In this document: positions 16,443-63,799 of the stretch, one piece after another | Position numbering within the stretch: position 1 is the stretch's first letter | How the letters are laid out: each line of letters begins with the position of its first letter | Source of the DNA: Bryoerythrophyllum caledonicum | Lineage: Eukaryota > Streptophyta > Bryopsida > Pottiales > Pottiaceae | DNA length: 64,000 nucleotides | Assembly (NCBI GenBank): GCA_963971425.1 | Contig: OZ020524.1 | Coordinates: forward strand, 21,753,022-21,817,021 | Direction: 5' to 3' | Position numbers and translations under genes: made by a program | The notes under the pieces: model-generated | The model's database searches: none | Told to the model about the DNA's origin: nothing | The model's input: the letters and a program-made list of their open reading frames with translations, nothing else

Positions 16443-16626
16443 GAAAGCAAAGTACTAAAAATATAATTGCTCGGCTGTTCAAAAACGACAATGCTACTCT
16501 GGAATGAAGTCTCTTTACAAAAGCGTTTGATACAAGACCAAATGTAGGAAAAAGCAGTGACTGGTCTGAGCAAAATTCGTGGATCTAACAACAAATTCTA
16601 TCCTCGCACAACCTCTCTGAAGAGCT

Positions 16627-17938: not shown

Positions 17939-18030
17939 TGCTCCTCCGTGAGGTCGTAGAGACTCGACGAGATTTTTCAGAAACAGAATTTCACAGAACA
18001 GAATTCTAGGTATTGGGACTGATCACCGGA

Positions 18031-21502: not shown

Positions 21503-21600
21503 CGGTGGAATCTCGGTTGGTGGCTGATGTCCTGAATGAGAAATTGTGTGTATGTAGAGTCGATTTGGATGACCAACCTCAATATCCTCGTCAGGAATAG

Positions 21601-21810
21601 CCGGAGATCTCCGGCAGAGTGGATAATGATCGACAACGACGACTTCTTGTTTGATTTTGAGAGAGAACGAAACAGAAGTAGCCGGAGATCTCCGGAAATC
21701 CTGCTTTCGATGATTCTGACAGCCACTGGAATCAAGGGGTGAATCCGTGGTTACCGGGCGAGATTGGCAGAATCTAGAATAGCACGGCATGAACAGCCGG
21801 AGATCTCCGG
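21601..21810. repeat. Three CCGGAGATCTCCGG palindromes upstream of DUF7869 gene
   Basis: Perfect copies at 21601-21614, 21682-21695 and 21797-21810, spaced about 80-115 bases apart, just upstream of the start codon: a promoter-proximal cluster. Confidence 0.95.
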
Positions 21811-22860
21811 TTCAGTTTTTTGGCCTTGATCGAATCAACAGCCGTACGGAATATTCGCGGGTATGGCGGTGTGATACAGTTGCATAACCCGGTTAACAGT
21901 TCGGATTCACACGCCAAGAAATTACGTCATCTATATACTCGAGTCGAATATATTTACTGCTTCAGGGCTATGATTGTATCTTCGGAGACGAATTAGTTTA
22001 AAATCTCTACTCGAGAGCTCCCGATCGACTCAGAGGACAGAATGCAACACAAACATCACCAATCCTCACAGACAGACAGCGAATACGGAATTATACGAGG
22101 GAACATACTTAACATTCCTGGAATAATGTCGATTCGTTTCCCTACAGTTATCTAGCACGATGTCGCGCAAGCGAACACTGTCACTGACTCGCTCAGCTCC
22201 CATAGTATCTCAAACATCCTGAGCAAAAAAGGAGGAGAGCTGAGTTAAAGGATACTCTTATCCACCTTTCCATCACCTCGTGGAGGGAAAATTCAGGCGC
22301 TCAAATTTCAAACGAATCTTGGGCATGCATGCTCCTTCAAACTAACTGCTGTACACCATCATGATTGTGCGCATTCTTCGACGTGCCCACGACCAAGGCC
22401 ACATTCCACTCATGATAATGAAAGGCTCGTACTCATGGGATGACCGTATTGTAAGGATACCATCTAGTTCCTAGAGTGCTGCAAATTTGAAAACGGATGA
22501 TGAAGTATGCCCCATGATGTATCTTTGAATATACTAGGGCCGTATCACGTCTTAGACTAAATCACAGTAAAATGTAATCGTACAGGACTTCTCGTACTCA
22601 CCTTTGTTAAGTAAATTATACCCTACCCAAGGAAAGGAGACGGCCCTCAGCTGCCTACTAGTATTGTTCATCAGGCAATACAAGACTCAAGTAGAACATC
22701 GGCGTTCGTTACCAATTAGAATAATCTCCAATATTGCCTAGTTCGACAGAAGTTATATGGATGCTTGAGAAGAAACGTGCACAAATAACTGAGCAGATGC
22801 TTTTAGAAGTACAGCAACCCGGTCCTATGAATTCGGGTACAGCTTCCGTGTTCAGGCTGG
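21811..22860. other. Non-coding middle of element A, left part
   Basis: No gene seen and no copies of the palindrome. It probably holds the far promoter of the DUF7869 gene, which reads leftward. Confidence 0.5.
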
Positions 22861-22870
22861 ATTGTGCATC

Positions 22871-22990
22871 AGGGTTTTAGGGTTTAGGGTTTAGGGTTTA
22901 GGGTTTAGGGTTCATGGTTTTCACGGTGTAGGGTTTAGAGTTCACAGTTTCTAGTTCACGGTTTCAGGGTTTAGGGTTAAGGATTCAGGG
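22871..22990. repeat. Interstitial plant-type telomere repeat
   Basis: Several perfect TTTAGGG units in a row (22874-22912), then decayed 'gggtttagggttcacggtt' variants to about 22990. A shorter run lies at 26139-26155, upstream of the ParB-like gene. Confidence 0.9.
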
Positions 22991-25330
22991 TTCACGGTTC
23001 ACCGTGGAAGGGTCTGAGTTCATGAAGGTTGAGGGCTTATATCACCTATAAATGTATAAATTAAAAATATTTTATAACTATGAACTATAACCTTAAGTTT
23101 ATCCATAACCATAACTTTTTAAAAAAACCTGGATACTATAGAGTGTAAGGAAATTTAGCGAGAATTGAACAATAACTATTTAATTTGATACATTATAATT
23201 TAGTTAGAGAGAGAATAAAGAAGAGAAGGAGGGTAATGGATTTAATTTTAGAGTAGAGTAGCTGTTGGCGCTTGCTTTGCAATGCATTAGCCCAACCATT
23301 TTTATGTATTTATAATATTAAAAAGTATTAAAAAGTAAAAGGTGGAATGGTTCACTATATTGTTGACACCGCGGTTGATTGTAGCGTTTTTGTAGTTCAT
23401 TGCATGGTTGACTACGTGATAGTTCACTCCGTGGTTTACTGCGCAAATTATGATTTTAGTAGTATGACTAGGAGTTGGCTCTTGGTTTGCAACACATTAA
23501 ATCAACCATTTTCATGTAGTTTTTATATCACAAAGTATTTAAGAAAAAAGGTAACAACAATCTACATAAAATATGAATATATCTTTGAAACCTATGCATT
23601 AATTTGAATAATGTAATAGAATGGGATAGAAAAAAAAATACTATTACAATAGTTCAATATTATTAACTATGGATGGAGATTGAGATAAAATAGGGAGAGT
23701 AAAACTAAAATAAATAAATAAACAAGTATGAGGGAGAGTTAGGGAGGGAGGGAGAGACTTGAGGGATTTATTTTTAGAGTAGTTTATATTTTTAGAATAT
23801 GTAATAAGGGGAATCTAAAAAGAAAATCAAATGTAAAAAAGAGATGGGGAGGGAGAGTAAGGGCAAGGAAGAGTAAAATAGGGAGAGTAAGGGATTCTTT
23901 TAGAGTAGTAAGTTAATTATAGAATGTGTAAGTATTGAAATCACGAGGAGTCTAAAAAATATTAGAATCAAGATTAAAAAAGAGATGGAGATGGAGAAGG
24001 AGGGGAGAGTAAAACAAAAATAAGAAAAACAAGTGAGGGAAAAAATAGGATAGTTAAAAAATACTATTACAATAGTTCAATATTATTAACTAAGGATGGA
24101 GATTGAGAAGGAAGGGAGAGTAAAACTAAAATGAATAAATAAACATGTAGGAGGGAGAGTAAGGGAGGGAGAGTAAGAGAGAGAGAGACTTGAGGGATTT
24201 ACTTTTAGAGTGGTTTATATTTTTAGAATATGTAATAAGAGGAATCTAAAAAAAAAAAAATGTAAAAAAGAGATGGAGAGGGAGAGTAAGGGATAGGGAG
24301 AGTAAGGGAGGGAGAGTAAGGGATAGGGAAAGTAAGGGATACTAGGGAGAGTAGGCGAGGAAGAGTGCGGGATTGTTTTAAAGAGTAGTTCATTATTTTT
24401 AGAATGTGAATTTATTGAATTAAGGAGAAATCCAAAAATTTTAAAATTCAAAAGTAAAATAGAGCTGGAGATGGAGAAGGAGGGAAGAGTAAAACTAAAA
24501 TAAGTAAAAAACAAGTAGGAGGGAGAGTAAAGAAGGGACATAAAGGAGAGTAAGAGAGAGAGAGACTTGAGGGATTTATTTTTAGAGTAGTGTATATTTT
24601 TAGAATATGTAATAAGGGGAATCTAAAAAGAAAATCAAATGTAAAAAAGAGATGGGGAGGGAGAGTAAGGGCGAGGAAGAGTAAAATAGGGAGAGTAAGG
24701 GATTCTTTTAGAGTAGTAAGTTAATTATAGAATGTGTAAGTATTGAAATCACGAGGAGTCTAAAAAATATTAGAATCAAGATTAAAAAAGAGATGGAGAT
24801 GGAGAAGGAGGGGAGAGTAAAACAAAAATAAGAAAAACAAGTGAGGGAAAAAATAGGATAGTTAAAAAATACTATTACAATAGTTCAATATTATTAACTA
24901 AGGATGGAGATTGAGAAGGAGGGGAGAGTAAAACTAAAATAAATAAATAAATAAACATGTAGGAGGGAGAGTAAGGGAGGGAGAGTAAGGGAGAGAGAGA
25001 CTTGAGGGATTTACTTTTAGAGTGGTTTATATTTTTAGAATATGTAATAAGGAGAATCTAAAAATAAAATCAAATGTAAAAAAGAGATGGGGAGGGAGAG
25101 TAAGAGAGAGGAAGAGTAAGAGGGGGAGAGTAAGGGATTTTTTTAGAGTAGTAAGTTAATTTAAGAATGTGTAATTATTGAAATCACGGGGAGTCTAAAA
25201 AATATTAGAATCAAGATTAAAAAAGAGATGGAGATGGAAAAGGAGGGGAGAGTAGAACAAAAATAAGAAAAACAAGTGAGGGAAAGAAGGGAGGGAGAGT
25301 AACGGAAAGGGAGATTCAGCTTTTCCACTA
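22991..25330. repeat. AT-rich tandem repeats of about 370-440 bases
   Basis: The block 'actattacaatagttcaata' recurs near 23640, 24063 and 24871, and 'gagacttgagggattta' near 23757, 24189, 24563 and 24999. The units are purine-rich (gggagagtaaggg) and AT-rich in alternation. The ~400-bp period and lack of coding suggest a satellite-like internal expansion in element A, about four units from 23.63 to 25.3 kb. The stretch 22991-23630 is AT-rich with no gene. Confidence 0.85.
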
Positions 25331-26372
25331 ATGTCGTTTAAAATTCAAGTATAATTATTACTCTAATACCCGGTGAACCCGAGTATCTATTATAGTCATA
25401 TCTAATACCCATGAAACCGGGTATCAATACGTCTTCTCACGCATGCTCACGACATTGACAATGTCATGATTGTGAAATGGACACGTTGTACATGTACGTC
25501 ATTTCAGCTGATTTTTAATTTCACCCATTGTCATCATGAGCCGTCACACCCTTGAGCCGTCCAGCTTGTCCTCTTTGGATTTTGGGAACTCCAAGAATGA
25601 ACCATTTCTTGATTTTTTTGGCTTTTGTCTTCGTAATGTCGAAGGTAGTGAGCGGAAGTGGCGGGAGGGGTTTTCTTTCTTGGTTTGCGGAGTCGGCGTC
25701 GACGCATTAGGTTAGTTTTGTATGCGCTGTGAGAGGCCGTTGGTGTGCGAGGTGAGTGTTGATTTATGTGAGGGACATTGAGCGTGCCGTGGAGAGGTTG
25801 TTAACTGGATATGGAATGAAGGTCAGAGAGTAGGATTGAAAGAGAGCGAATGCGTTAGGAAGAAATTTGAAGAGCGCCTAGGTTCAGTAGCCAAGAGTGA
25901 ACGACGTTGCGGTTGAGGGTGGCGTCAACACGAACGACCACGACGTACGGGTGCGCCGATTCGGCAAGTGAAGAGGTATGTAAAGTCTCAAAAATGGCTT
26001 TCAGTGAAATTTCACTTGAATTTGCACAGGACTTCATAGAATCGTCACTGGAGCAGGTGTAGGGTTCGGTAAGCTTCATTAGGGTTCGAGAGAGTCGAAT
26101 AGTACTGATGTTGATAATCGTTCGAGCGAAATAGAAGGGTTTAGGGTTTAGGGTTCTAGTTTTCTGTGCATTCAGTTTCGAAGGGCCGGAATTGAGCAAT
26201 TTATGCAGTGTTGAAATTTGTTCCACCGAATTCCTGTATGTCAGAACTGGACCATACATTCTAGGGCATTTGAGAGATTGTATAGTTTGTCGTTCTGAGT
26301 TGTTGAATGCTTATGTACTGCAGAGTTGTGTATACGCTTTAATCCAGAGCAGTTACTGAAGGAGATTGCGAA
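25331..26372 (+). other. Leader/promoter region of ParB-like gene in element A
   Basis: GC-richer than the preceding repeats from about 25580 onward, with a short telomere-like run at 26139. It precedes the first ATG (26373). The equivalent stretch of element B (57343-58006) is also a GC-richer island in AT-rich DNA. No protein gene supported. Confidence 0.5.
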
Positions 26373-29300
26373 ATGGCGACTACAGTAGGGACGTGGAATG
26401 AGAGTGCGTGGGATGGAAACCGGTAAGTATACACAATTGAACTGTTTATGCTCAGTCCGGGCGACCAGGTGGGGTTCCTTTTTTTGAGTGAGTTCCGAAT
26501 TAGTTCTATTATTTCGGAGTGGACGAACACTTGAATGATTTTGAAAAACCTCAAGAAATGCGTACTAGACTTCCGATGTCTGTTTGGCTATAGTCGATTG
26601 GTTTTTTGTTGTCCCGTGAACATATTTGTATATCTATTCATGAATATGCGAATGATTTTGGAATTCCATGAATGTTTGAATGTGTTGTTCCTCACTGAGT
26701 CTGCCGAGTCTGGTTCGATTCAATGTATATAGTTTAATCCATGTAGAGTCGTCAAATTTGGCGTTCCATCGAAACATTAGCGGATTCTTCTTCTAGTGTG
26801 TAAGGTCGAGTTATAACAGAATTGTGTGAGCTCATTTGATACATATATTTATGTTCTCAATTATGTAACTTGGTATTTAAGTATGTCAAACTTCAAGAGT
26901 TATACGTCAAACCTCTCTGTAAATGAATGTAAATATTCGAGTCCTGATATGATCCGATTAGTGCTTCGAAGTGCCGTACGTGCTTCTGCTTGAGATCTCC
27001 GGTTGAAAATACGGAGTTCCAGTAATCAGCCGGAGATCTCCGGATGATGTAGCAATCAGATGAATATGTGAACCCTATACAGGAGTTAGTTATTCTCGAA
27101 AGTAGCCGGAGATCTCCGGACGTATCGAAACAGTGGAAATTCGCGTTGAGGGGTCATTAACCGGAGATCTCCGATTCAGGTCAGACATAGACCCGTCAGA
27201 GCAGCCAGGATTCGTTCCTTGTCGGATGCACTCGACTTCCCCAAATCAGCCGGAGATCTCCGGGTACTGTCCCCTGCTGGCACTGTGATACAAATTTGGA
27301 AGCACGATTCATGGTTTCAATATCTAGGAACTTGTCAGGTGATTTTGTTTTGGATTCTTGTTATTGACCAGACAATTGCATCGATTCTAAACTGCTTGCT
27401 TGTTCTTTCAAAATCATCTTGCAGGGATTCGTGGACAACCACACTTCCGACTGAATGTCGACCCGGTAAACTTGGGGCATTTGTAGAGTATTGGCTCCCT
27501 GAGTTTGTCTACAGAGGGATACACAATGTCGGCTACGTATACAATTGCCGAAAGAGCATAACCCAGTGGGGCATCAAGCTCATTAAAACCCATGACGGTG
27601 CCTGGGAATTCGTCCCTCAGCTTCGGATTGGCAAACGGGGTCACCCCGACATTGGTCTCCAGGTTCTCGAGTTGCAGGGTCTTGATGATGAGGTCAGTCT
27701 CGTCATCGTCCAGGAGAACGTGGACTCCTCCACCGAGCCACATATATACGGCTTGATCCTAGAATCATCTAAGATTTCGGATGAGATGGTGGAGACCTGC
27801 TAGAGTGAGAACTTTTTATTTGCCCCTCCAACGGGTGATACGTGGTATCCGGAGTACGTGAATGAGCAGTGGAAGTGGATGGCTGAAGCACAAGAGAAGT
27901 CCCGAATGCCCGTTCCAGACGCAACTCCCAATCTGTCTCTGACACCAGCATCGACCTTGGCAAGAAAACGCAAGACCACCTTGAAGACTTCGACCCCAGG
28001 ATCTTCATCGCGGGCGGAGAAGGGAAAGAAAGCGAAGGCCGATGAGCCAGGCCTCGCGATCGAAAGGTGCCTGAACTTCACACAGGCTGACCTCACAAAA
28101 ATGAAGCGGACTGAAGTGGAAGCAATTGGCAAGGTACTCGACGACGCGTTCAAAAACGTTTACATACACAATAATAAGCCTTTGACAGTAGAAGACCCTG
28201 ACACGAAGAAGGATGTCGTGAAGCTCGTTCATTTCGATAAGCTGCACCGGGCCCCCCCTGGAGGATTAGTATACAGAGGCATCCAGAAAGAACGGCTTGA
28301 AGGAATTATCAACGCAGTTCGCGCGTCTTCGAAGGCCACGGCACCTGAGATTCACATTCGAGTCCTGCCACTGAAGAAGAAACCTGAAGGAAGTAAGGTA
28401 GAGTTTTTCGCGACCAAGCCGACGAAGGAGGACTGCCTGAGGGACTCAACACACTTTTACATTATCGGAGGTCAGCATACTGTGGCGGCGCACAAGGTTC
28501 TGTCACACGAATTGCCAGCAACGTGGACGCTTGAAGAGATCTCCCACTTCTCTATCATCCCGGTTTGGACAAAACTGGACCCCAAAGACATGACCCTGCT
28601 ACAGCTCTTGCGCGCTCTTAACCAAGATCTGACGGGTTTGCGGAAGGAGCAGAGTTTCACTGAGCAGCTGCAGACGTGCAGAGTGAAGTGGTTTGAGTTC
28701 GGTAAACCAGCCCCCCAACTGTATGGTCGTCCTCAATCTGACGCATTCTCGGTAAATATACATTCTCAACCTGAAAATATTTTTTATTCCGTGGCTGTGC
28801 TCTATCCTCACAGCAACCAAACCAATCATCCGGAGATCTCCGGCTGCTTACACCCTGTAACTGTATTCATTGCAGACGTTCCAACGGCAAGTAGTGCCAA
28901 CGATTTTTACACACCTCGGTAAAACAGACCCCAAAGACGCGAAGGTCCCACTTCTATTCGAGATGGATGATGCGGTGGTCCAGAAGTGGATCCGAATCGA
29001 CAGGCTGTTCGTCGCTGGAGACTTACCAGACTCCAACGGGAAGACGGGGGACCCAGCTAAGCTGAAGCGGAAACCTCTGGTGCAGAACGACTTCAAGCCT
29101 CTTTACAAAATGCGCGCTGAAGACCTAGACTACCTCGCGGATTTAGTGCTCGAGAAGAAGGTCTGTGTGAAGTCCTCCAAAGCGGCAAACCAAGGTACTA
29201 TGAAAGGGCAGGCGGAGACTCTCGAAAACGCGGCGAACAGAGAGAAGAGAGTCCGTGCAATGAAGAATGAACTGATGCTTAAATACAAGTCGCACCCCCT

Positions 29301-31428
29301 TCCCTCGAAGTCTGCTGACTTCGTCCCATACACAAAGGAGCAGTGGGACGCATTTGCCGAAGAGAGGAATATTGGAAGGGTCCAGCTCGAGTCCTGGGTC
29401 GACGCCGCTAATCACTCTGCCAAGGGTAAAGCTTGGCTTGAGGGTCGACTGAAGGCGATAAACAAGGATACCGACCCCACTCCAGACTTCCTCGTGTCCA
29501 TTTGGAGTCAACACATCATTGAAGATGCTGCCGAGGCCACACCCACGAATGATACGTCCCTGTTTGACTCCAAATACACCTGCAGGGTTATGCCTGACAG
29601 AGGGGGCGAGATCGCCGAAGTACTTATCATGCCGGACATTCAGCAGTGGCGTAACGTCACTCACCCTCACTTTTACTTCTTTTTCCTCTATCGCGTGAAA
29701 GACGACATATGCCGTGTACAGGTCCTGGATGCGTTGGACTTCAGAACCATTTTCGACCATCTGGAAGTGGACACGAAGGACGGGCGGACGAGGGTCAGAT
29801 CACCGTCGGTTCTTATCACTGACGTCGCAGGATTCGTTGAATTAAAGAGGTACATCAGTCTTCGGCAGAGAGAGTCCAGAGGCAAGGTAAAATTGTGGGC
29901 AACGCATGTCGTCTACTACTTCCCCCACCCTGGTGATGGATTTCCGGTTCCAGTAATTGGGGTCGAGGAGACAGTATACTGCGTATTCCTGTATGAATAC
30001 GATTCAAGCGAGACGCCTGCTCAGTCATTCAAGAGGCTCTTCAAAGGCCACCCCGAAAGAATGCCGGCCTTCTTTTCAGCCGCTCAACATAAAGAAACCA
30101 TCCACCGCTGGAAGCAAACCGGTGTCCCACAGCTGAGGATCTCGGTCCTGGATTCGCTGTTCACGGGATACATCAGAGAGGGTATGGTGGTCGTCAATGT
30201 TCATGGAGGACCACATATTACATACCTCGGCTTGGTAAGCAAGACATCCTTCCCAAGCAATCCAATGTCTAAGATTTCCGGTCCGCATACAGTTATATGA
30301 ATTCGATATCGCCGTCCTAATTTTTTTTTGGTTTGCAGACTCACGACGCGCGGGTCCTCGAGATTGTGAACAGCGAAGATGCCAAAGTAAATGCCGAATC
30401 CTGCGCAGAACAAATATTCAAATTCCACTTGAATATCTTAGCTGACGTTACCGACGCCGATCCTGAGGAGTTACTGGAGACTGACATCACTGGATCGACC
30501 CAAGGCGCTGGTGTTCAAACACGGGCTATGTCGAGGATGAATTACACCGGCGAGGTATAACGCCTACGAATACTACCCGACCCGGAGATCTCCGGATGTT
30601 TATTCCATTCGGATGCCCTCCATTCTTTTGGACTCGTCTTTATCATTGCTATGTTTATTTTTAGTTCCCCCGGTAGACTCGGACAACTTTGAACCGGAGA
30701 TCTCCGGGTGTATGATACCGTTTTATTTCGTATTGCGTCTTAATGTATTCCACACTGACTTTGTCAATGTGACGCAGACGACTGATGCCACGATGCTTGA
30801 TGTTGATGTGCGGGATGAACCAAGTTCATCAGCGGTTCCCAATTTTAGACTGGATTCCTTGGCTACAGCCGCTCGGATCATCGGTGTAGGCACCCCAATC
30901 GACCCATTGCAGGTAAACGTTGATGAACCACATCCTGCTGTCAGGCGTGCCTCGCCTAGTTCAACAAGCGACTCTACTCTGGACGGTAGACGGCGTCCCT
31001 CTCAAATGGAAACCAGTTCGCATTCCGATAGGCAACGTTCTCCTCCACCAGATCTGGACGATGACACGGCAATGTCCGATCGCCTGGAGTTCGACCACAC
31101 CCACAGAGCACCCGGAGATCTCCCGCTGGACAACCCTTCCACGACGCGTCCTGAAGTGGAGGTTGTGTCCAAGACTGCCGAGGACCTGACTTTGCGTGAC
31201 ACTGATCACACGATGGATGAGGCATCGGCGCAACAAACATTGCGTGAATTACAGGTTATGAGCCCTCCGCGCAGCCCTCCACGGAGCCACGGGCAGCTGG
31301 CTCAGAAAGAGAAGAAGAAGGCAATCGCGAAGAATCCTGTGCCGAAAGTTCCTCCTCCTCCGCCTACAGTTCGGACAAGGGCCCAGAAAGATAAGGTGAA
31401 CAGTTACTTGTCCATCAAACCTTCTTGA
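26373..31428 (+). CDS. ParB-like domain protein of element A, 5 exons
   Basis: Exons 26373-26422, 27425-28751, 28876-30234, 30339-30554 and 30778-31428 join in coherent phase to 1201 codons, with one in-frame TAG at 27801-27803 (after SDEMVETC; the frame continues as SENFLFAPPTGDTWYPEYVN). N-terminal module (~1-145) is shared with element B. Next is a basic linker, then a ParB/sulfiredoxin-like region: YRGIQKERLEGIINAV, IHIRVLP, and HFYIIGGQHTVAAHKVL, which matches the GG-H-R/T-AA loop that binds nucleotide in ParB proteins. A ~450-aa region of unknown fold follows (exon 3), a short exon also present in B (THDARVLEIVNSED), and a Pro/Ser/Asp-rich tail. In bacteria ParB domains are CTP-dependent DNA clamps or nucleases; here the role is unknown, and DNA binding is inference. 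The TAG looks like a point mutation, since both sides are well conserved in composition. Confidence 0.7.
26991..27263. repeat. Palindrome cluster in intron 1 of the ParB-like gene
   Basis: Perfect CCGGAGATCTCCGG at 27030-27043, 27106-27119 and 27250-27263, a one-base variant at 27161-27174 and a half site at 26991-27002. Intron 1 (26423-27424) of the matching gene in element B carries a comparable cluster of a different palindrome (58408-58709). Confidence 0.95.
28831..28844. repeat. CCGGAGATCTCCGG in intron 2 of the ParB-like gene
   Basis: A perfect copy within the 124-base intron 28752-28875. Confidence 0.95.
30582..30707. repeat. Two CCGGAGATCTCCGG palindromes in intron 4
   Basis: Perfect copies at 30582-30595 and 30694-30707 within intron 30555-30777. 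The element B counterpart position (between its third exon and its acidic exon) has a GGTAGGATCCTACG site at 60391-60410. A degenerate site (31112-31125) lies in the coding part of exon 5. Confidence 0.95.
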
Positions 31429-31772
31429 TTGTTCTCAAGACAGTGCACTCTCTGCAGACGGTGTTCTTACCACTACATTACTGGTATTCGGGTGTCGGCT
31501 GGATCAACACAGTCGAAGGATGTCGGTGGCAGAAGCCTCGCACAGACTGCTGAAGCGGCTGGTGTAGCTCAGACTTCTAGGGATACTACACCTACTGTCC
31601 CAGGTGCCTAATATGGACATTCATACTTACGTGCCATCATCTATATAGTGCTCATTCTTTCATCCAGCATTTCTGGGTTCTGAGTGCGGAACACTTTTAT
31701 ATGTATCTTTGCAATTTCTCTAAGCTGTACAAGTTCCTCATCTCAGCCGACGTACTCGTATTTTGGGTTCAG

Positions 31773-32446
31773 GTCTGAAGAAGTTTACGACGATCGTCCG
31801 AGAGCCTCCAATCGAGGATCAGGTAACACAACAACGGGTTTATCATGTCGTGTTTGACTTAAATGGAGTTCTTGTGCACAGGGGGGAATTTAAACAGGGA
31901 CAACCGAGAGACATCAAAGTAAGGCCGGGTTCCACTGAAATCCTGAACTTCGTGGGAGAGAAGGCTACTGTCTCATTCTGGAGCAGTGTACTGGAAAAGA
32001 ATATTGTGGATATCATCAAGGAGTTGCGCAAGAAAGGTGCTACCATTCCGGAAGGCGCCAGAATCCTGACACAGGCCGATTGCACAAAAACATCATATAT
32101 GCTTCCATCTCAGCCAAAGAAGCCAATTTTCCTAAAGGACCTGACAGTTTATAATAGCAAAGCGTCGCCCACATCTCCTAAGGATGTCTTGCTTGTGGAC
32201 GATACCCCACTAAAGAACATCCTTAACGATCCCTTCAGCGCAGTTCATCCGCCATCATGGACTGGGAATACGGGTGAAGCCTGGTTGACCACCATGTTTC
32301 TCCCATGGCTCTCCCGACTACTAGCGTCAAATGAGGATGTTCCCGACTTTGTTAGACGGAATCAATTGAAGTTTGCCAGTGATCCAGTAGACAAAAATTC
32401 CACTCAGGCTCGCTCCGTGGTGATGGGCATAATTTCGACGCCTTAG
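31773..32446 (+). CDS. FCP1-like HAD module (HAD1) of element A
   Basis: The exon starts after a 'gggttcag' acceptor. It codes a haloacid-dehalogenase/FCP1-type domain: VYHVVFDLNGVLVH (motif I), ATVSFWSSVLEKN (motif II region), KPIFLKDL, and DVLLVDDTPLKNILNDPFSAVH (motif III/IV). Motif I in active FCP1/SCP phosphatases is DxDxT; here it is D-L-N-G-V, so the nucleophile Asp is kept but the second Asp is Asn. A possible upstream exon 31513-31603 fits in phase (G|GT), and a donor at 31396 would link it to the ParB-like gene, so HAD1 may be the C-terminal part of one long protein; this is not proven. Element B carries a homologous module at 61.6-62.3 kb with the same D-L-N-G. Confidence 0.7.
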
Positions 32447-32693
32447 AACAATGAAATATACTGGATAGTATTAACTCTATGCTTTGTAAATGTTTCGTCA
32501 TGAATGTCTGTCGGATTTTGACCTTTCAATTTTGAAGACAAATGTTCTTGTCAGAAACGTTATTTGTTGAGGTCCTTCATTTTATTTGTTATTGTTGGTG
32601 TCTCGCCCCCAAACTTCACCCTTAATATCTATGAACTCTATTGAGTATTCTCCTGACCATTTCCACTGCAGAACGTTGGTCTGGGAGGGGCAC

Positions 32694-32707
32694 CCGGAGA
32701 TCTCCGG
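32694..32707. repeat. CCGGAGATCTCCGG between HAD1 and HAD2
   Basis: A perfect copy. In element B a GTAGGATCCTG-type site lies in the same place (62461-62475). Confidence 0.95.
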
Positions 32708-32798
32708 TCCAGGATGTGACATCAGTTCCTCCTACCATATTTTCTCGTCTTTTCAATGTTCAATTTCTAATTCTATGGTCGTGCCATCTATTTCGCAG

Positions 32799-33251
32799 GT
32801 CATAATCATATCTCTCCATGGTCCTCTCTGCTCGGACGAGGTCCTTGACTCGGCCAAGTCCCGATCCGCGCAGCTGCCTTCCTTTGATGACACCGCAGAT
32901 GTTATTCCAATACTACTGCGGTATTTCAATGTCGGGATCTGGTCTCCTATGCGTCCAGAGAGGCTCATGGAGGCGGCCCAAGTGTTATTGCCCCTAGACA
33001 TCTTATCAGATATTCCTTTTTGCTATGCCAGCAAGCAGACTCGAAGGCCCAGCTATGTTAGGTTTCTCCACATCTTTAAGAAGGCCTCATTTAATCCTAG
33101 AACAAGGCATTATTTGTGGCCTAAATCTCTTGTTGTTGCAGATCTAGATCCATTCAAGAATCCTAGAAAGGCTATAGTTCATTATCTAACATATGGGAGA
33201 CACCATACAGGACGGGTAGAGGGCATCTGTAAAGCACTAAAATTAGAATAG
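32799..33251 (+). CDS. Second HAD-like module (HAD2) of element A
   Basis: The exon opens after the acceptor 'tttcgcag' and reads VIIISLHGPLCSDEV, then FNVGIWSPMRPERLMEAA (motif II-like), and SLVVADLDPFKNPRKAIV (motif III/IV-like). Motif I has Ser where the catalytic Asp should be (I-S-L-H-G), so a phosphatase-dead, perhaps binding-only domain is likely. It is homologous to 62601-63239 in element B (FQVGIWLSMVQARLRKVL; KVLMVDDQQMRHVFN). The 5' exons are unknown. It may be spliced to HAD1 or be its own gene. Confidence 0.6.
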   Translation, partial: VIIISLHGPLCSDEVLDSAKSRSAQLPSFDDTADVIPILLRYFNVGIWSPMRPERLMEAAQVLLPLDILSDIPFCYASKQTRRPSYVRFLHIFKKASFNPRTRHYLWPKSLVVADLDPFKNPRKAIVHYLTYGRHHTGRVEGICKALKLE

Positions 33252-33367
33252 TTGATTCGATTCTCCGTAGATTACACGCGCCTCTTATCAACGGCTACCC
33301 TTCATATTTTGTATGACACTTTCTTATAATGAAACAGTTTAGTACTGGACTCTTACTCTGATTTCAT

Positions 33368-33553
33368 CCGGAGATATCCGGTTGCATGTTCTATCAATTG
33401 CGAGTAATTTCTGTCCGCATCTCTGTCCCATTTTTTCCTACCACATGTTTCCCAACCACACATTTGTGATGTACAGCATGTCCATTAATTTCTGTCTTCA
33501 GGACTCGGTTCTTCTTCTGGTTTCCACTTTGATTTTCACCCGGAGATATCCGG
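33368..33553. repeat. Two CCGGAGATATCCGG variants after HAD2
   Basis: 33368-33381 and 33540-33553, both with the same one-base change from AGATCT to AGATAT at the centre. A half site (ATCTCCGG) follows near 33704. End-proximal sites on both sides of element A carry the T variant (GATATC), while internal ones carry AGATCT. Confidence 0.85.
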
Positions 33554-33748
33554 CTGCATGTTCCGGACTGACGTATTGTCTAAATTCAAATTTGGTCGCT
33601 CTAGCCATTTCTTCCTTCATAAGTGTCATTGGTGATGCATTTAATGTTTGAAAAGTACTCGAAACTCCTCGGCTTTTACGCTTCACTCTCATTTATGAGG
33701 CACATCTCCGGATCTTTCTTTTAGTCCTTAGTCCAGAATTCACCTCAT

Positions 33749-33763
33749 AGTCCAGAAATAGTT
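33749..33763. repeat. Right terminal inverted repeat of element A
   Basis: AGTCCAGAAATAGTT, the exact reverse complement of 16074-16088. The neighbouring sequence outside it reads as element H intron, close to the donor of exon b. Confidence 0.65.
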
Positions 33764-33807
33764 GAATTGGGCATCTTGATCTAAGAATGTAAGGAGCGAG
33801 GATTACC

Positions 33808-56500: not shown

Positions 56501-58006
56501 CTAGTATACTATGTGACAATATCCATAGATTTAAGCCGTAGTCCTGCCAAATTTCTACAAATTTCTATACCCTAGGATTCCTAATTACGTTGGAAAGTTT
56601 TGGTAGACATATGGAGTATCATCCATGATAGTACATCCATTGTGTTTAAGCTAAGATGTTGAAATAGACAATTCTAACTAGTTTTAGATAGTAATGTTGT
56701 ACTTTGGCATTAATGTATACATCATAAACGGAACAAAATTTCCAAGAAGTTGAAATATTATTATTACACCAATATTTGCATCACTATACAGTATTATATT
56801 TGAGTAAGTAAAGTACTAATGTCTTTGTATAGGATAATGTAGATAAAGCTTGAAAAAAAATTACAAATTGATAAAATACATAATTCCAAGACATTATTTT
56901 ACATATTCAATGGCATTGAAATGCTTTTAACACATTGGTTAATATCTAATTATGTTCTTCTTCATTTTCAATTGTTATTTTCCAATTCTACTCATTGATA
57001 GTATATCATAGTATATTTTAAAGTGTATAACTTGTATTCCTTATAAATAGAAACATCCATGGTGAAAACATATGAGAAAATCTAAAACATATTACTAGAC
57101 GACCATGCGTTGTGTCGACGGTAATCAAAATGAAAATTTTCTAAACTATCCTAAGCATGTAAAAATACAAAAATACCTTGTCCCATTTTGAACTTGCTAC
57201 ATATGCATGTGTAGTGATAAAATCACTTTGTAGCCTTCTTCTTATTTCTACCGTTATGTGTTGCGTACTTCAAATTTTTTGAATGTGTGGCTCAATTCTT
57301 TGTATCAAACCCTCTAATTTAATTCTGTACTTGATTAGACGTTTAGAGTACATTAAACAGTGATGATGACAGTGACCATGATGAGGAGTTGCTTGAAGGC
57401 AACTCAGCCGTCATCAACGAGGGCTGATTTGACGAATCATAATTTTCCCTCCTTCGTTTCTCTCTCCTCTGTTGTCCTCCCTCTCTTTTCCCCTCCACCA
57501 CGCTTTCTTGCGGTTCTTGACTTCTAGTTTGTTTGACTGCGTGTGCGTTAGAGCGCTTGACAGTGTTTTCCTGTCCTTGCTGACTGTGCATACTGTGTGA
57601 GTGTGTGTGAGTGAGCGTGACTGTGAGAGAGAGCAAGTGTGAGTGACTGTTGTTGTGTGAGTACGAGTGACTGTGAGTGAGCGTGCTGTGTGCGTGTAAG
57701 TTTGGTGAGTGTTGCAATTTCCAAGAGGTGCGGCTCGCGGCCGCGTCGTTACGGAGGAGTGCGATGCCCTAAGATCAAAGTTTGCATCATTCCGGAAGAG
57801 TGTGGCATTCTAAAACAAGAATCGTGTTGAGGTACTTATATTATTTTTACAAATTGAGGAAATCTGTAGTTGACAATGCTGTAGCTTCTTCTTTTTCTTT
57901 AGTTGTCAGAGTTTTCTAGATCAACAGGTGACCTGTTGTTTGATACTATCTTTTTATACTAGCAGCGTTGCCTTCGTGTTGAATGCAGTGCTTCAAGGTC
58001 AGGAGA

Positions 58007-59516
58007 ATGTCAGGCCCATCTCGCGAACCAAACGATTGGCGTAACTCGTAAGTATCCAGGGTTTTAATGATATTGTGTTATACCTTTTCATGCTTAGATT
58101 AATCAAATCTAAAGTAGCTTAAGAATAAAGGTTTTGGGTTTAGGGTTTACATGTCTAAGTTGACACGTTGACAGGGTTCAAATGATGTTGTTCAAGATTA
58201 TAGTGTTTGTAGTATGACTTCCAAATCATGGTTCAAGATTACTGGGTTTGTAGTATGACTTCCAAATCCTGGTTTAAGATTACAGGGTTTGTAGTATGAC
58301 TTCCAAATCCTGGTTCAAAACATGTAAATTTGTGTATATCAGTTTTATAACAAACAGTAAACATCAAGTTATACTCAAACTTCATATAAATGCATACCAA
58401 ATGTGGAGGGGACCGTAGGATCCCACTACCCTCAAGAGATGGTATTTTTCTACCATCCCCCTAAGGATAGTAGGACCCTACGATCTTCTACAAGATGGTA
58501 GAATCCTACCATCTCCAACGAGATGGTATGATCCTCTATCCCCTTAGGGATGGTAGGATCCTACGATCACCCCACGAGATAGTATGGTCCAACAATACAC
58601 AGGGAGATGGTATGATCTTTAAATCCCCTTGGAGATGCTAGGATCCTACGATCGTCCATAAGGTGGTATGATCTTACCTTCTCTTTAGAGATGGTAGGAT
58701 CCTACCATCCCCTTGTGAATTGCCAGATTACCATCAACAGCTCAGTACATATATGATATCTAATTCTGGAATTTGTATGGACAGAGAAAACATCATCGCT
58801 CTAGAGAACGTAAATCCCAACTGGTGTCCTAGAAACCTGATTGATTGTGTCTCCGTCAGGCTCAAGCATGTCGGCTGTGAGTTTGTAACTTAGTGACTAA
58901 TCGCAAAGTTACCGCATTCTTTTTGGCGGACAAGGTCGTCAAATGGGGTCTACATTGGACACTGAACAAGAAGAAGGAAGTACTCATTGCGCCAGTGATT
59001 TCCATAACCGATCCAGAGAAGCCAGTAGCCGATACATTTCAACTTTCAATTAATAACCTGGAGGTCTTAGAATTGGAGCACCTAGGGAGAAACATTATCC
59101 TCCTTATTGTTTTTGAGTTTGTGGTGAGTTCTGGTTGTTTGAGAGTGTATGGCTTAGTCGTTGACAAGGTTGGTGTGGTCCCCAAACTTAACGACTCTGT
59201 GAAGGATTACGGATTCACGGTTTTGTCTCATAATCTCAACTGTAAGCGGATTATTGAGGGCTGGAAGGAGCTACAGGCCAATCGCAATAGCTACAACAAG
59301 GACTTGGAGAAAGCAACTCCTCCTACACCGCCGAAGAAGAAGAAGCGGGCTATAGTTCGTAGTGCGGAGGAGCCTCCCAGTAAGAAGTCTCACAGGAAGA
59401 AGTCGGATTCAAAGGGCGATCATACGATCTCTAGAGCATCTCTCTTTGCTTCTTTGGAGTCTCTTCTCACACCTTCTTTGGATCCTCATATGCATTCATC
59501 TTGTCTTCTCATCTAA
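58007..59516 (+). pseudogene. N-terminal module gene of element B, frameshifted
   Basis: Exon 1 (58007-58047, MSGPSREPNDWRNS) ends in phase 2 at a gtaagt donor, exactly like exon 1 of element A (MATTVGTWNESAWDGNR, also phase 2). Exon 2 starts at 58785 after 'tatggacag' (ENIIALENVNPNW ... LKHVGCEFV), shifts frame near 58885, and continues as NRKVTAFF, VKWGLHWTLNKKKEVLIAPV and VLELEHLGRNIILLIVFEFV, which align with QWGIKLIKTHDGAWEFVPQL and VLELQGLDDEVSLVIVQENV of A. It then runs into a Lys-rich segment (PPTPPKKKKRAIVRS). The GTG at 58893 is not a real start. Confidence 0.7.
58408..58709. repeat. GGTAGGATCCTACC-type palindrome cluster in intron 1 of element B
   Basis: About ten sites in 300 bases. 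The best is the perfect 20-mer GATGGTAGGATCCTACCATC at 58690-58709. Others are near variants (GATGGTAGGATCCTACGATC about 58546, GATGCTAGGATCCTACGATC about 58626, GATGGTAGAATCCTACCATC about 58494). The position matches the palindrome cluster in intron 1 of element A. Confidence 0.95.
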
Positions 59517-59538
59517 CGTCACATTTTCTTCCTTACAG

Positions 59539-59898
59539 ACAAAAGGCGCACAAGTGGTTGAAGTCTTCTATTCCAAGGACTGTGCGATTAAAGCGCTGGA
59601 GACAGCGAACAAGATCTTGGAGACTTCTGAGGCACTGGCAATAACGATACCTTCCATGGCGGCGCTGACTATGAGCGAAAAGAGGAGGAAGAAGAAGGCA
59701 AAGGGCAAGAAGAAAGCATCGGTGTCTTCCAGCAGCGACACTCCCAGCGAGTCGGAAGAGGAAGAGGAAGAGGTTGAGAAGGACGATGAGCAACCTTTAT
59801 TAGACTATAGGCGCACAAGCACGGCCCAGAGGCAATTACAAATGCCAGCTGATCAGATTCCCATGACCCCTCCCGGCCCATCACAGAACCCTATATGA
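59539..59898 (+). pseudogene. Element B third exon (THDA-like), Ser/Glu/Lys-rich
   Basis: Starts after the acceptor 'ccttacag': TKGAQVVEVFYSKDCAIKAL, the counterpart of THDARVLEIVNSEDAKVNAE of element A (exon 4, also phase 0). It continues with a basic block (EKRRKKKAKGKKKASVSS) and an acidic run (SESEEEEEEVEKDDEQ). In A the ParB exons lie between the N-terminal module and this exon; in B they are absent, with only a short intron-like gap. Confidence 0.65.
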
Positions 59899-60179
59899 TG
59901 CACATGTTAACTCCAAACTCTATCGCCGGACATGTTATTGTTTAGACGATTGGACATAACTATAACAATGTTAAGTGAATGCTAACTCCAAACCGTATCA
60001 CGGAACACACTATTCTTCAGACGACTGTACATAACTATAACAATGTTAAGTGATCGGTGATGTACTACGATTTATTTCTTAAACGGATATTTTGAATTTT
60101 CATTTTCAAATCAAATCCCCTACAAGAAACTGAGGCAATACATGATGGACGCGTGCATACAACCACTTCAGAGAGAATG

Positions 60180-60410
60180 GTATGATCTATGATGCTCTTC
60201 CAATAGGTTTTGCAAGTCACCATATATATATGAGTGTATCCATTTGTCCGTGATTCAGTCCTTGCTTGTCGTTGAGTGAGTACTATAGGATTGTAATATC
60301 CTACTACCCCTGCTTATCTTTCATTGGAAGAAATTCTTCTAAATAAGTCGGCCGTTGGTATTTACTATTTATGTGTGTCATTTTCAAGGAGATGGTAGGA
60401 TCCTACGGTC
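60180..60410. repeat. Element B palindromes before the acidic exon
   Basis: GATGGTAGGATCCTACGGTC at 60391-60410 and a weaker GGTATGATCTATG near 60179-60191. Same relative place as the 30582 and 30694 sites of element A. Confidence 0.85.
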
Positions 60411-60529
60411 CATCCCTTCTACCTATATCCCCTGTCCATACATCTTTGTCATTGGTTGTCCGTGTGTACTTGACAACTAGAACAAGGAGTTCACTGACCT
60501 TGTTTTATGGGCGTAGCTTCTCAAAATAG

Positions 60530-61192
60530 ATGATTACAGTGACGAGCCCTCTACTTCGGCTGCGGCGGAGCATGTGAATTACAAGCACGTTTTAACAACG
60601 TATGTTATCGATCATGTTAATCAAGGTACCGATTATGATGAAGAAGATGAAACCATCCAGGCTATAGTTGACAATCTTCTCGATGAGTGCGGAGTGGATT
60701 TGACTTCTCGTGGAGGTGAGGTTGAGGAGATGAGTTCTTTGGAGGTTGATGCTAGGAGGATAGAAATCGAGGAGGAGATTGAGTTACAAATGGATGAAGA
60801 TTTAGTTAACTTAGCTAGCTATGTTCCTCCTACGCCGATGGAGGTGGAACCATCACCTCAGCCTTCCTATAGCAAAGCCTTCAAGGTGTTTACTACGGAC
60901 CCTGAAGAAGAATTGGCAGCAGATATACTAGCTAGTTTACAATCCATGGATAGGACTGTTTCACCTGCACCAAATGATGCGACAGTCGCCATGAAGCTTA
61001 TTGTTGGCATATTTCAGGAGGCCGCTTAGGGATTGAAGTCCTTTAGCCCTCCGAGGAAGGTTACCAATTCTCCTGTGCCGGACAACTACCTTGACGGCCC
61101 CCTAAATTTCAACGATCATAATCAGCTATCAAGCTTTAGGATCATCCCGAGACCTGTTGTTAGTCTATTACATGATACTTAGAGGGATGATC
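60530..61192 (+). pseudogene. Acidic exon of element B
   Basis: DDYSDEPSTSAAAEHVNYKH parallels VRDEPSSSAVPNF in exon 5 of element A. It continues as an acidic, low-complexity region (VNQGTDYDEEDETIQAIVDN; ARRIEIEEEIELQMDEDLVN). An in-frame TAG at 61027-61029 is followed by more protein-like sequence (GLKSFSPPRKVTNSPVPDNY), so it looks like a nonsense mutation. No known domain. Confidence 0.5.
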
Positions 61193-61328
61193 CATCTGCA
61201 ACAACCTCCGGTTACGAATCCAGTGGGAAAAGTATGTTCTACCACTTTGTTGTTCTGCGTGTATTTTATATTCCGTATGTTCATACTAATATCCTCACGG
61301 GATATTAGGCTCAGCCATCCTCAAGAAT

Positions 61329-61347
61329 ATAGTAGGATCCTACGGTC
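61329..61347. repeat. GTAGGATCCTACGG site in element B
   Basis: Between the acidic exon and HAD1. One arm is shortened relative to the perfect 20-mer at 58690. Confidence 0.85.
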
Positions 61348-61591
61348 CGCAAGCATGCTCTTTAGCAAATAGCTTAGAGGTCCTGCATTCTTCACTAACG
61401 ATTTTATACATATTGGCTGGGGATATGATCGGGTCTGCTGATGGTGGTGAAAAGGTTCCCTCATCCACACCGCATGAAGTCCCTCCTCCCTCTAAAGAAG
61501 GTAGTCTTTTGTAACATTATACTTCCACCACTACTTTGCATGTTTTCTTACAATGTATTGTTGACTCCTACTTGCAACATTGATTTACTGC

Positions 61592-62289
61592 AGTAATACT
61601 CGGTGTACTCGCGAAAAGAGGAGCACCAAGATCAGCAAAGGTAAGGGAACCTCGGTACACTGTTGTCTTGGACTTGAATGGATTTTTGGTTCACAGATCC
61701 TTTGATAAGGTGCGCAAAACTGTCGCTAGACCCGACTGTGCAAACTTTTTGAAGGTGTTGATAAATAAGGCTATTGTTGTGATATGGAGCTGCGCCATGA
61801 AGAAAAACGTTGATATCATGTTACGGTTTGCTTTTGAAAGTTCTTCTATACAGAAAAAGGACTTCAAGTTGGTAGTTATGTCCCAATCTAAAATTACAAA
61901 GTCTAGTTTTCCGAGAGAAGGGAGACAAAGTTGAGAAAGAATACATGTTGAAGGACCTCAAAAAAGTCAAAAATACTCTTGACCACATGGACCTTAGTCT
62001 TACATTGCTCATTGACGACAATCCGGAGAAGAACCTCCTCAATGATGAGTTCAGTGCGATTCATCCTAAAATATGGACAAGTGACATGAAGGACACGTTC
62101 CTCATGACCACCATGCTTCCATGGTTGGAGGATATGTTTCACTCAAATCTACCTGTGGCGGAATTTTTTTGTACCCATCCCCTTGCCAGATGCCAGGGCT
62201 CTGGTGAATTTAGATCAACATTATTGGCTCAAAGTATCGTACCTGGGTGTTCTCAAAATTGGAATTTGAACCGCGGCGCATATGTCTAA
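61592..62289 (+). pseudogene. FCP1-like HAD module (HAD1) of element B, frameshifted
   Basis: The exon opens at about 61592 (after tttactgcag) with VREP conserved (KVREPRYTVVLDLNGFLVH against TTIVREPP...VVFDLNGVLVH in A). Motif II region: AIVVIWSCAMKKNVDIML. A frameshift near 61905 precedes LTLLIDDNPEKNLLNDEFSA, the counterpart of VLLVDDTPLKNILNDPFSAV. As in A, motif I is D-L-N-G with Asn in place of the second Asp. Confidence 0.7.
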
Positions 62290-62458
62290 CTACTCACTGT
62301 CATTAGTGATGTGTATATTTTGTATCTTTTGGTTCAGTATAAACTTGTAGGTGGTACCTCTATTATATAAACTACTCTTTGATGGAGTAGCCATCGTCTT
62401 ACTTTGTAATTACTTGATTTCATTATCCCGCTTGAATTGTCACTCTCAATTATCCTTA

Positions 62459-62478
62459 GGATAGTAGGATCCTGTGAT
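62459..62478. repeat. GTAGGATCCTGTGATC site between HAD1 and HAD2 of element B
   Basis: Same place as the 32694 palindrome of element A. One arm has decayed. Confidence 0.8.
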
Positions 62479-62600
62479 CCACACGGTCGCACTAGCTGAG
62501 GATACTATGTGCTTTTTGTAGTAGGGATGGCAGGGTGTAGGGATGTCCTATGATCCATTGGTGTTGTTTATAACTTCTGTCGTTTTCTATGATCACAGCA

Positions 62601-63239
62601 GGCCTGCAACAACTCACCGAAAGTTATCGTATTTCTCTGAATGGAGTGCTTTGTTTTGAGCAATACGATAATTGCACGGTCCCAGGACGCTTCAATCGAA
62701 ACAAGATTATAGTTTGGTCTGGTCTGGTAGAGTTCTTCACAATACTTTTGAAGTCCTTCCAAGTTGGTATATGGTTGTCCATGGTCCAAGCACGCCTAAG
62801 AAAGGTCCTTAAAGTCATCCTCCCTGAGGACATTAGGTCGAGACTTCTTTTTGTTTACGGACGAAGCAAGTGTTCAGGGTCACAATTGTATCCTTTGTGC
62901 GACCAGGTTCTTGCAAGATTCTCAACGGATCGGAAGATGGAGCAATTCTGCCTTCCTAAGAAAGTATTGATGGTTGATGACCAGCAAATGCGGCATGTCT
63001 TCAATGGAGACTTTGCTTGTTACTTTCCACAGTCATGGCATGGTGAAATGACGTTACCCAACGCATCAAATGTTATACTCAACCTTGTAACAACATTGCT
63101 TCCGTTCATCCTTCCACTGTGCTCCTACGCCTCAGTAAAAGATTACATGCGTGGGCACCACATGGATGGAAAGTACAAACGTAGACTGCTAGAACAATGG
63201 CACAAGGACCGAGTATTACGAGGTCATACTTACGAGTAA
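62601..63239 (+). CDS. Second HAD-like module (HAD2) of element B
   Basis: Open after the acceptor 'atgatcacag'. Motif I: YRISLNGVLCF, again Ser in place of the catalytic Asp. Motif II region: FQVGIWLSMVQARLRKVLKV. Motif III/IV: KVLMVDDQQMRHVFNGDFAC. The C-terminus is basic (HHMDGKYKRRLLEQWHKDRV). It is longer and more complete than the version in A. An inactive phosphatase fold used for binding is likely. No frame breaks, unlike HAD1 of B. Confidence 0.6.
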   Translation, partial: GLQQLTESYRISLNGVLCFEQYDNCTVPGRFNRNKIIVWSGLVEFFTILLKSFQVGIWLSMVQARLRKVLKVILPEDIRSRLLFVYGRSKCSGSQLYPLCDQVLARFSTDRKMEQFCLPKKVLMVDDQQMRHVFNGDFACYFPQSWHGEMTLPNASNVILNLVTTLLPFILPLCSYASVKDYMRGHHMDGKYKRRLLEQWHKDRVLRGHTYE

Positions 63240-63570
63240 TCTCTACATTGAGTTCTCCAGCCGTTGGTTGTCATTCAGTTTATTCTATGAATAAAATAGT
63301 TACTTGTTATTAATTCCATTCTTAATGCCTATTTGGATGCTTATTTTGTTTCTTCTGCACTACATTCATTGCCCCTACATGTGTCTGCAAACAGTAGGCT
63401 CCCACTATGTAAGCAATGTATCTTGGATTGCCAGATCCAACTTCGTCATTTGATGCCTTTCTATACTTCATCCCTACAAGAAAGTTACAGTTGTCCCTAT
63501 TCTGTAAGGCTCACTCCCAAATTAATAGAAGATTCCCAGATTCCTAGTCACAATACCTTGTGTCAATCTT

Positions 63571-63592
63571 GTCCCGGTAGGATCTTATGGTC
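63571..63592. repeat. Degenerate GGTAGGATCTTATGG site after HAD2 of element B
   Basis: cggtaggatcttatggtc, a decayed member of the element B palindrome family in the position corresponding to 33368/33540 in element A. Confidence 0.65.
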
Positions 63593-63799
63593 TTGCTTCG
63601 AACATCAATACTTGATCCAAAGTCCAGATTTTGTCCTAGAGTCCAGATGTACTTAAATGTGGCATTAAAGGTGTCTGTCTGCTGTCAGCTACTGTGGGAG
63701 TCGTATCTTCGTCAAAATTTGGTCTTGAATGGCCTCATCAAGTTAACAAGGACGTGTTGAACCCTTTTAAGCCAAAAAACATTGAAAACGAAGCCATAA

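Follow-up and report, generated by a model that had tools for sequence, protein, structure and literature searches.

Related transposons of a moss genome repeat family-specific 20-bp palindromes in their non-coding DNA, candidate sites of an element-encoded protein

We analyzed a stretch of 64,000 nucleotides (the window) from the moss Bryoerythrophyllum caledonicum (assembly GCA_963971425.1, contig OZ020524.1, positions 21,753,022 to 21,817,021). The window contains two related elements, A and B, and most of the non-coding segments of each carry copies of a palindrome of its own (Table 1). Both palindromes, word A (YANCCGGAGATCTCCGGNTR) and word B (approximately GATcGTAGGATCCTACgATC), are 20-bp dyads centred on GATC.

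We found that A is one 17.7-kb DNA transposon. Two other copies in the genome (c1 and c2) aligned over the whole of A, the ends of its inverted termini (16062-16091 and 33746-33775) read ATGC...GCAT, and the window copy, c1 (CCTA/CCTA) and c2 (TTGT/TTGT) are each flanked by their own matching 4 bp, which identifies a 4-bp target-site duplication. These copies were two of four clusters of A words taken from elsewhere in the genome (c1-c4). Copy c3 has the left end, but its match breaks off near window position 26888 even though the sequence was read further, so that c3 is truncated or interrupted. In c4, BLAST left the final 75 bases at the right end unaligned. The left-terminal pattern occurs genome-wide 248 times in forward and 251 times in reverse orientation (symmetric forms are counted on both strands) and 0 times in the control. 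A itself is apparently inserted into another gene: judged from the frames only, those at 33779-35085 and 15624-16058 (minus strand) may continue across it. That gene has a sub-threshold match to DUF1015 and a weak profile similarity to the ParB-like part described below.

The left half of A (16-22 kb) contains the transposase gene. Its match to PF25273 (DUF7869) scored 154.1 bits against a Pfam cut-off of 26, and the only other Pfam signal in the protein was a sub-threshold one to DDE_Tnp_ISL3. The transposase has 117 relatives, the best named ones being proteins of the mosses Physcomitrium and Ceratodon and the liverwort Riccia, which belong to the same transposase family. The right half contains a spliced gene for a protein with an N-terminal module (N-module), a ParB-like part and an acidic part, followed by two HAD-like frames, HAD1 and HAD2. 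The single in-frame stop of the spliced gene (27801-27803) is absent from all three of the other A copies that cover that place. A relative (P0001) has the N-module and the ParB-like part in one protein.

B in the window is the truncated right half of a B-type element; a left terminus was looked for and not found, and the ParB-like part is missing. A stretch of 32 nt in the B gene (58877-58908) reads GT...ACTAAT...AG, and its removal restores the frame; it is a tiny intron or an insertion. Directly to the left of B is a compact, MITE-like inverted repeat (56124-56500) with arms 90-94% complementary. We took six regions with exact B words from elsewhere in the genome (b1-b6), and all six had an A-like layout as far as the sequence was read: the transposase and a partner on one side, and the N-module/ParB-like, acidic, HAD1 and HAD2 parts on the other. 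The acidic part was not detected in b3, and HAD2 lies beyond the piece read in b4. At their right termini, A and the window's B both have two copies of TCTGGACT 19 bp apart; fuller B copies keep one exact copy there. A sequence-only reading of the window had described A and B as elements. That description holds, with A extended to include a transposase half and the window's B recognized as a remnant.

Word A matched the window 23 times with at most 2 mismatches, always within 16190-33553, where 0.14 matches were expected by chance. The coordinates given for it in the sequence-only reading were correct. With at most 3 mismatches there were 28 matches, 5 of them outside element A. When the 64 kb were scored with a weight matrix, 23 sites reached at least 14.9 and the next best place 6.6. 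An alignment of 20 A sites showed a nearly invariant word in random flanks, with additional conservation of an A two bases upstream (19/20) and a T downstream (14/20). A form with one mismatch (CCGGAGATATCCGG) occurs at 33368 and 33540 and, mirrored, near the left end at 16190. No other 14-base palindrome in the window recurs more than twice.

Word B matched the window six times with at most 3 mismatches (0.01 expected), all within 58466-60410. Inside B, a weight matrix built from these six matches found 16 places scoring at least 8; the only other such place in the window is at 7007. Shuffled B sequence gave a mean of 0.35 places, and since the top score in 200 shuffles was 18.0, places below that score are individually uncertain. 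Among the B-word places proposed earlier, the one at 62459 stands (62460, score 22.0) and the one at 63571 is weak (63573, 9.8); a high-scoring place at 61328 (23.8) had been missed.

The two words differ from each other. Across the six B regions, 191 sites give a B half-site of GAT-C/N-GTA-G/A-GA (in b3 the word has T or G at position 1), which agrees with the A half-site at 4 of 9 positions (chance P 0.22). We claim no common framework on this agreement, and the earlier description of the palindromes as unrelated is statistically fair. We also gave up the idea that the half-sites of both words are bipartite around a single free base. It fitted the sites of the window, but in a wider B set position 4 was mostly C (237 of 382 half-sites).

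Each word is largely private to its family. In the whole assembly (437 Mb, 894 contigs) the exact 14-mer of word A occurs 2718 times, against 3 for its reversed control, and the exact B word 177 times, against 0. Words of this length are thus rare by chance in such a genome. With about 15-16 words per full copy, the count suggests about 170-180 copies of A. All four A clusters and all six B regions examined proved to be elements. The six B regions contain a single exact A word (b1, position 814), which lies outside the B element beside a fragment of A. In IMG/VR, two contigs contain word A and five contain the B core, each a single time, which we take as chance.

The words avoid coding DNA. 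Coding sequence makes up 48% of A, with gene ends partly approximate, but contains only 2 of the 23 A words (P 8e-5). The A word at 21074 is within a poorly conserved linker of transposase exon 1. Each B region has 27-39 sites by weight matrix and 26-38 by consensus, and few fell inside blocks that match the proteins (0/26 in b1, 2/38 in b2, 2/37 in b5 and 0/33 in b6; P 1e-5 to 6e-9). The two in-block sites each of b2 and b5 are where the block crosses the place of intron 2 of A, a presumed intron, and the corresponding sites of b1 and b6 are in a gap between protein blocks. Eleven of the 23 A words are in the left half. The central 5 kb between the two divergent genes (21.8-27.0 kb; 21811-26985 in A) is free of A words, and in B elements it contains three B words at most. 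The internal repeats of this centre vary among copies.

The sequence-only reading had held that the words occupy the same gene positions in A and B. In the right half, four segments do contain words in both elements: intron 1, the intron that precedes the acidic exon, the gap between HAD1 and HAD2, and the stretch beyond HAD2. The chance that both would fill these four segments is P 0.36 with all sites, and 0.05 or 0.02 with clusters counted once. In b2, judged by its protein-matching blocks, the words are in every right-half segment, including intron 3 and the segment between the acidic exon and HAD1, both of which are empty in A; the rule of placement is therefore simply "non-coding". What stands of the earlier claim is the preference for non-coding segments, and positional conservation finer than that is weak. 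The intron-1 cluster is a tandem array in the window's B and dispersed in A.

Table 1. Features of elements A and B in the window (positions are those of the 64,000-nucleotide window)
Feature	Positions	Strand	Basis or remark
Left target-site duplication, CTTG, 4 bp	16059..16062		Repeated at 33775-33778
Element A, one DNA transposon, 17,712 bp	16063..33774		Genome copies c1 and c2 align from 16063 to 33774/33775; inverted termini
Left terminal region, ATGC..., TCTGGACTTTGCAAAGTCCAGA	16063..16108	+	Terminus comparison and genome-wide pattern count
A word, subterminal variant CCGGATATCTCCGG	16190..16203		Mirror of 33368/33540
A word, 2 mismatches	16427..16440		
Small acidic open frame	16630..17091	-	81% identical over 153 aa in related left end L044
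A words 17529 (2 mismatches), 17635, 17718, 17925	17529..17938		Downstream of transposase gene
Transposase exon 2, DUF7869 (PF25273)	18034..19968	-	E 4e-45
Presumed transposase intron, donor approximate	19969..20176	-	A word at 20084
Transposase exon 1, start approximate	20177..21500	-	Homologous to N-terminal part of Physcomitrium/Ceratodon DUF7869 proteins
A words 21601, 21682, 21797	21601..21810		5' end of transposase gene
Gene for N-module, ParB-like and acidic parts, 5 exons, 3603 nt	26373..31428	+	Clean splicing; one in-frame stop
Intron 1 of A right gene, A words 26989, 27030, 27106, 27161, 27250	26423..27424	+	
Intron 2 of A right gene, A word 28830	28752..28875	+	
Intron 4 of A right gene, A words 30582, 30694	30555..30777	+	
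A word, one mismatch, in acidic coding exon	31112..31125		
HAD1 of A, NIF/FCP1-like	31724..32446	+	PF03031, E 4e-13; DLNG in place of DxD
A word between HAD1 and HAD2 of A	32694..32707		
HAD2 of A, start approximate	32801..33251	+	SLHG motif, without the nucleophile Asp
A words 33368, 33540, subterminal variant	33368..33553		
Right terminal region, two TCTGGACT 19 bp apart, ...GCAT	33728..33774	-	Terminus comparison
Right target-site duplication, CTTG	33775..33778		Sequence and copy comparison
Element B, truncated right half of B-type element	57343..63650	+	Left limit from the sequence-only reading; right end with two TCTGGACT 19 bp apart
Intron 1 of B gene	58048..58784	+	
B words, 28-bp tandem array in B intron 1	58408..58713		8.9 units in TRF, counted from 58466; by eye about 11
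B words 60289 (score 13.7) and 60391	60289..60410		Before acidic exon
B word between acidic exon and HAD1	61328..61347		Score 23.8
B HAD1, frame-broken	61584..62289	+	DLNG motif
B word between B HAD1 and HAD2	62460..62479		Score 22.0
B HAD2	62574..63239	+	SLNG motif
B word after HAD2, weak	63573..63592		Score 9.8

The A words are under selection. We compared words and flanks between pairs of the window copy (W), c1, c2 and c4, leaving out c3 as partial. Sites were the union of those in both copies, so as to favour neither; the pairs share copies and are not independent. In five pairs the words diverged by 3.4, 5.2, 2.8, 4.0 and 4.9%, and the flanks by 11.9, 16.2, 11.5, 16.0 and 15.8% (p between 1e-6 and 4e-10). 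The sixth pair, W-c1, is too close to show a difference (1.9 vs 2.2%, not significant). When sites were defined in the window copy only, the contrast was larger (2.1 vs 12.8% and 3.2 vs 18.1%), part of which is ascertainment.

Conserved words in introns could in principle act as RNA, as hairpins with a GAUC loop in introns or untranslated regions, and both words do fold into a stem with such a loop (-6.3 and -10.4 kcal/mol). The substitutions argue otherwise. In B they broke the pair in 37 cases, gave G-U in 8 and were compensated in 2; in A the numbers were 5, 2 and 0. Because pairs are broken rather than compensated, we conclude that the words are read as DNA and reject the hairpin explanation as barely credible. 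Some sites are also near the ends and probably untranscribed. A search of the window against Rfam gave no match at gathering scores.

Between A and B, conservation is higher in the terminal motif and the transposase than in the words and the accessory proteins. Two near-full alignments of the transposase exon (b4 and b6) showed 54% and 56% identity, and other blocks of at least 90 aa 41-64%; lower identities near the b3 edge come from an adjacent element. The transposase partner is 35-50% identical, HAD1 and HAD2 are 30-35% identical, and the right gene is 23-32% identical.

Based on these results we suggest that A and B represent sister families of giant DNA transposons, about 17-20 kb long, whose private dyads serve as sites of an element-encoded dimeric protein, in a manner like that of VANC in Arabidopsis. 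We put the probability of this proposal at about 0.5. Each family would repeat its own dyad through its non-coding DNA, and the dyads would be bound by a dimeric DNA-binding protein that the element encodes. We infer that this reader is a fast-evolving product of the right half. The first candidate is the N-module protein, because A and each of the six B regions carry its gene and because its intron 1 contains the largest right-half word cluster in A and in most B copies. By analogy with VANC and VANDAL elements, the most likely function of the reader would be to coat its own element and so prevent silencing or switch the element on, and word and reader would change together so that each family serves only itself. 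The sequence-only reading had also proposed an element-encoded, fast-evolving factor. The non-coding placement, the family specificity and the conservation of A words are in keeping with it, and the B words fall short on selection (see below).

The earlier reading had put ParB/HAD proteins in the place of VANC. Bacterial ParB loads at palindromic parS sites, and the ParB-like part has a GGQH motif in its conserved block. This likeness stays at the level of the motif: there was no ParB profile among 57 relatives in Pfam (the best match of any family was PDZ_3, E 0.014), no NCBIfam match for 2 relatives and no match to a solved structure in PDB. A partition or clustering system of the ParB/parS kind, in which the protein would load at the palindromes and keep copies clustered or tethered to a place in the nucleus, would account for palindromic, dispersed loading sites. 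We think it very improbable, given this lack of profile and structural support and because such logic needs no site in so many non-coding segments; the setting also differs, being a plant nuclear transposon with many sites per element. As for the HAD proteins, the NIF domain was found in HAD1 of A and in both pieces of HAD1 of B, and HAD2, with no Pfam match, is tied to the HAD family only through its similarity to HAD1. Active phosphatases of the FCP/SCP (NIF) type carry DxDxT/V. HAD1 and HAD2 of both elements have other residues there (Table 1) and look like pseudo-phosphatases, and a role for them as readers of the words is not supported.

How a transposon can escape silencing without harm to its host is an open question, and VANC in Arabidopsis is the only well-studied plant example known to us. 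The VANDAL transposase, VANA, is Mutator-like. PMC5735166 describes the VANC21 motif as a 9-mer in one orientation, mainly in non-coding DNA including introns, that spreads by tandem repeats. According to that paper and PMC10398659, VANC targets are family-specific and the transposase is much more conserved than VANC. The comparison made in the sequence-only reading is apt in several details. Both systems are multi-gene DNA transposons whose introns and other non-coding parts carry a short motif specific to the family; the motif differs between related families, and the transposase is more conserved than the accessory protein. Tandem growth of the motif is seen here in B intron 1, and the flanks of A sites are unrelated. 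In contrast, A and B have a DUF7869 rather than a Mutator-like transposase, inverted termini and a 4-bp target duplication, their accessory proteins have no match to the VANC domains DUF1985 and DUF287, and their words are 20-bp palindromes rather than, in the same account of VANC21, a 9-mer arrayed in one orientation.

Since the element is not a VANDAL (it has another transposase and other accessory proteins), anti-silencing is a reading by analogy; given that a reader exists, we give it about even odds. The fuller proposal is that moss DUF7869 transposons have an independent VANC-like anti-silencing (self-activation) system with a new reader family of DNA-binding proteins (N-module/GGQH, with the pseudo-phosphatase HADs helping), which would have diversified into families that each own a private 20-bp dyad. 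We advance it tentatively, as somewhat short of an even bet. If it is true, a second independent system would show private words with private readers to be a general solution, and with two sets of homologous proteins, a pair of 20-bp dyads and many copies in nature, the code would be a clean one to crack.

Several observations weigh against our proposal. Selection on the B words is not established. In six pairs of four copies (b1, b2, b5 and b6), word and flank divergence were 5.4/7.4, 5.6/4.1, 7.2/6.3, 5.5/8.1, 3.9/6.1 and 5.5/7.5% (p 0.16, 0.17, 0.53, 0.02, 0.04 and 0.08), and the two reversed pairs, both with b1, were not significant. Pfam shows no DNA-binding domain in the proteins of the right half. 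The CpG ratio is 0.89-0.91 in A and mostly 0.75-0.94 in its surroundings, against depleted values of 0.64 in B and 0.39 at 52.3-57.3 kb, so there is no clear sign in the sequence that the words protect from methylation; as a mark of methylation escape, CpG depletion is itself uninformative, neither A nor most of its surroundings being depleted. One distant DUF7869 element (L040) carries a different, 24-base palindrome (GAGGGGTCGAGGCCTCGACCCCTC) in two perfect and two imperfect copies at 6924-8260, upstream of its transposase frame and within a stretch that is itself duplicated; recurrent palindromes are thus not unique to the clade with TCTGGACT ends. Finally, the words also adjoin both ends of the elements, as transposase sites would.

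The B comparisons and the tandem array of B intron 1 might indicate neutral spread, in which a word and its flanks multiply as mini-satellites or by gene conversion and have no function. For the words as a whole we consider this very improbable, since the flanks of A sites are unrelated, A words differ 3-4 times less than their flanks, and coding DNA is avoided.

The position of words at the ends could also mean that they are sites for transposition, where the transposase or an accessory protein assembles the ends. In CACTA (En/Spm) elements the TnpA sites are subterminal and clustered at the ends, and hAT elements carry repeats. A and B resemble CACTA elements in being large plant elements with many copies of a short word and an accessory DNA-binding protein (here predicted). 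The subterminal forms of word A are mirror-symmetric (16190 vs 33368/33540), and the transposase is the one protein here with an informative, closely similar family. However, words in A and B run through introns along the element except in the central 5 kb, and 18 of the 23 A words are 1.4-6.8 kb from the nearer end, 9 of those in introns. In addition, A and B have TCTGGACT in common and transposases that are more than half identical, yet their words differ, and all four distant DUF7869 elements that were read do without the words (see below). We regard a role in transposition as unlikely, though worth keeping in view.

The sites might instead be auto-regulatory, bound by an element-encoded activator or repressor that acts through 5' introns and leaves silencing unaffected. 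Such a switch would fit the dense word clusters in the 5' regions of both divergent genes (in A, 21601-21810 and 26989-27263; B elements are alike in this). Words downstream of genes and in late introns, which a promoter switch would not need, make this explanation doubtful.

A first look at the genome gave 3611 DUF7869 candidates, of which 150 were scored. Four distant elements (25-28% identity), of each of which 9.2 kb were read, have transposases in single frames of 1066-1087 aa. In the DNA read, none of the four had A or B words or matches to the accessory proteins, in contrast to A and B, and 3 of the 4 had no repeated palindrome of at least 12 bases. As far as sampled, the A and B words belong to the TCTGGACT-ended clade.

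Two further families belong to this clade. Family E (L044) has decayed A words. The transposase of family F (L045) is 72% identical to that of B and 49% to that of A (over 145-147 aa), and four GGATCC sites lie within 840 bp (0.08 expected), with half-sites near CATCRANGGA. Family F is known from a single 1.4-kb piece and is no more than a lead. A third word, approximately CATCRANGGATCCNTYGATG, is tentatively indicated in a B-related family; under the fuller proposal above it would be one more stage of this diversification.

IMG/VR had no relatives of the transposase. Two contigs filed as metagenome-assembled genomes of Bacteroidetes (L001 and L002) have a DUF7869 relative at 24-25% identity, probably as eukaryotic contamination, and L001 has no repeated 10- or 12-base palindrome. 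No mention of DUF7869 or of the protein string HTHEDID was found in the open-licence papers searched.

Other parts of the window contain further repeats and frames. Two related stretches of about 4 kb (9750-13590 and 48819-52260) are inverted, 71-86% complementary and 35-42 kb apart; they may be a pair of copies of the same element, or else both arms of a larger element. An array of tandem repeats of about 32 bp with a different palindrome (GCGGAGACGTCtCCGC) lies at 4368-4731, with 571-619, just upstream of a DUF659 (hAT-like) frame at 4987-6732. Interstitial tracts of TTTAGGG-like (telomere-type) repeats are found at 52778-53316 and 22871-22992. A long frame with in-frame stops (37119-39356, plus strand) has no Pfam match, and the frame at 39609-40715 resembles that at 48136-48789 on the minus strand (37% over 171 aa).

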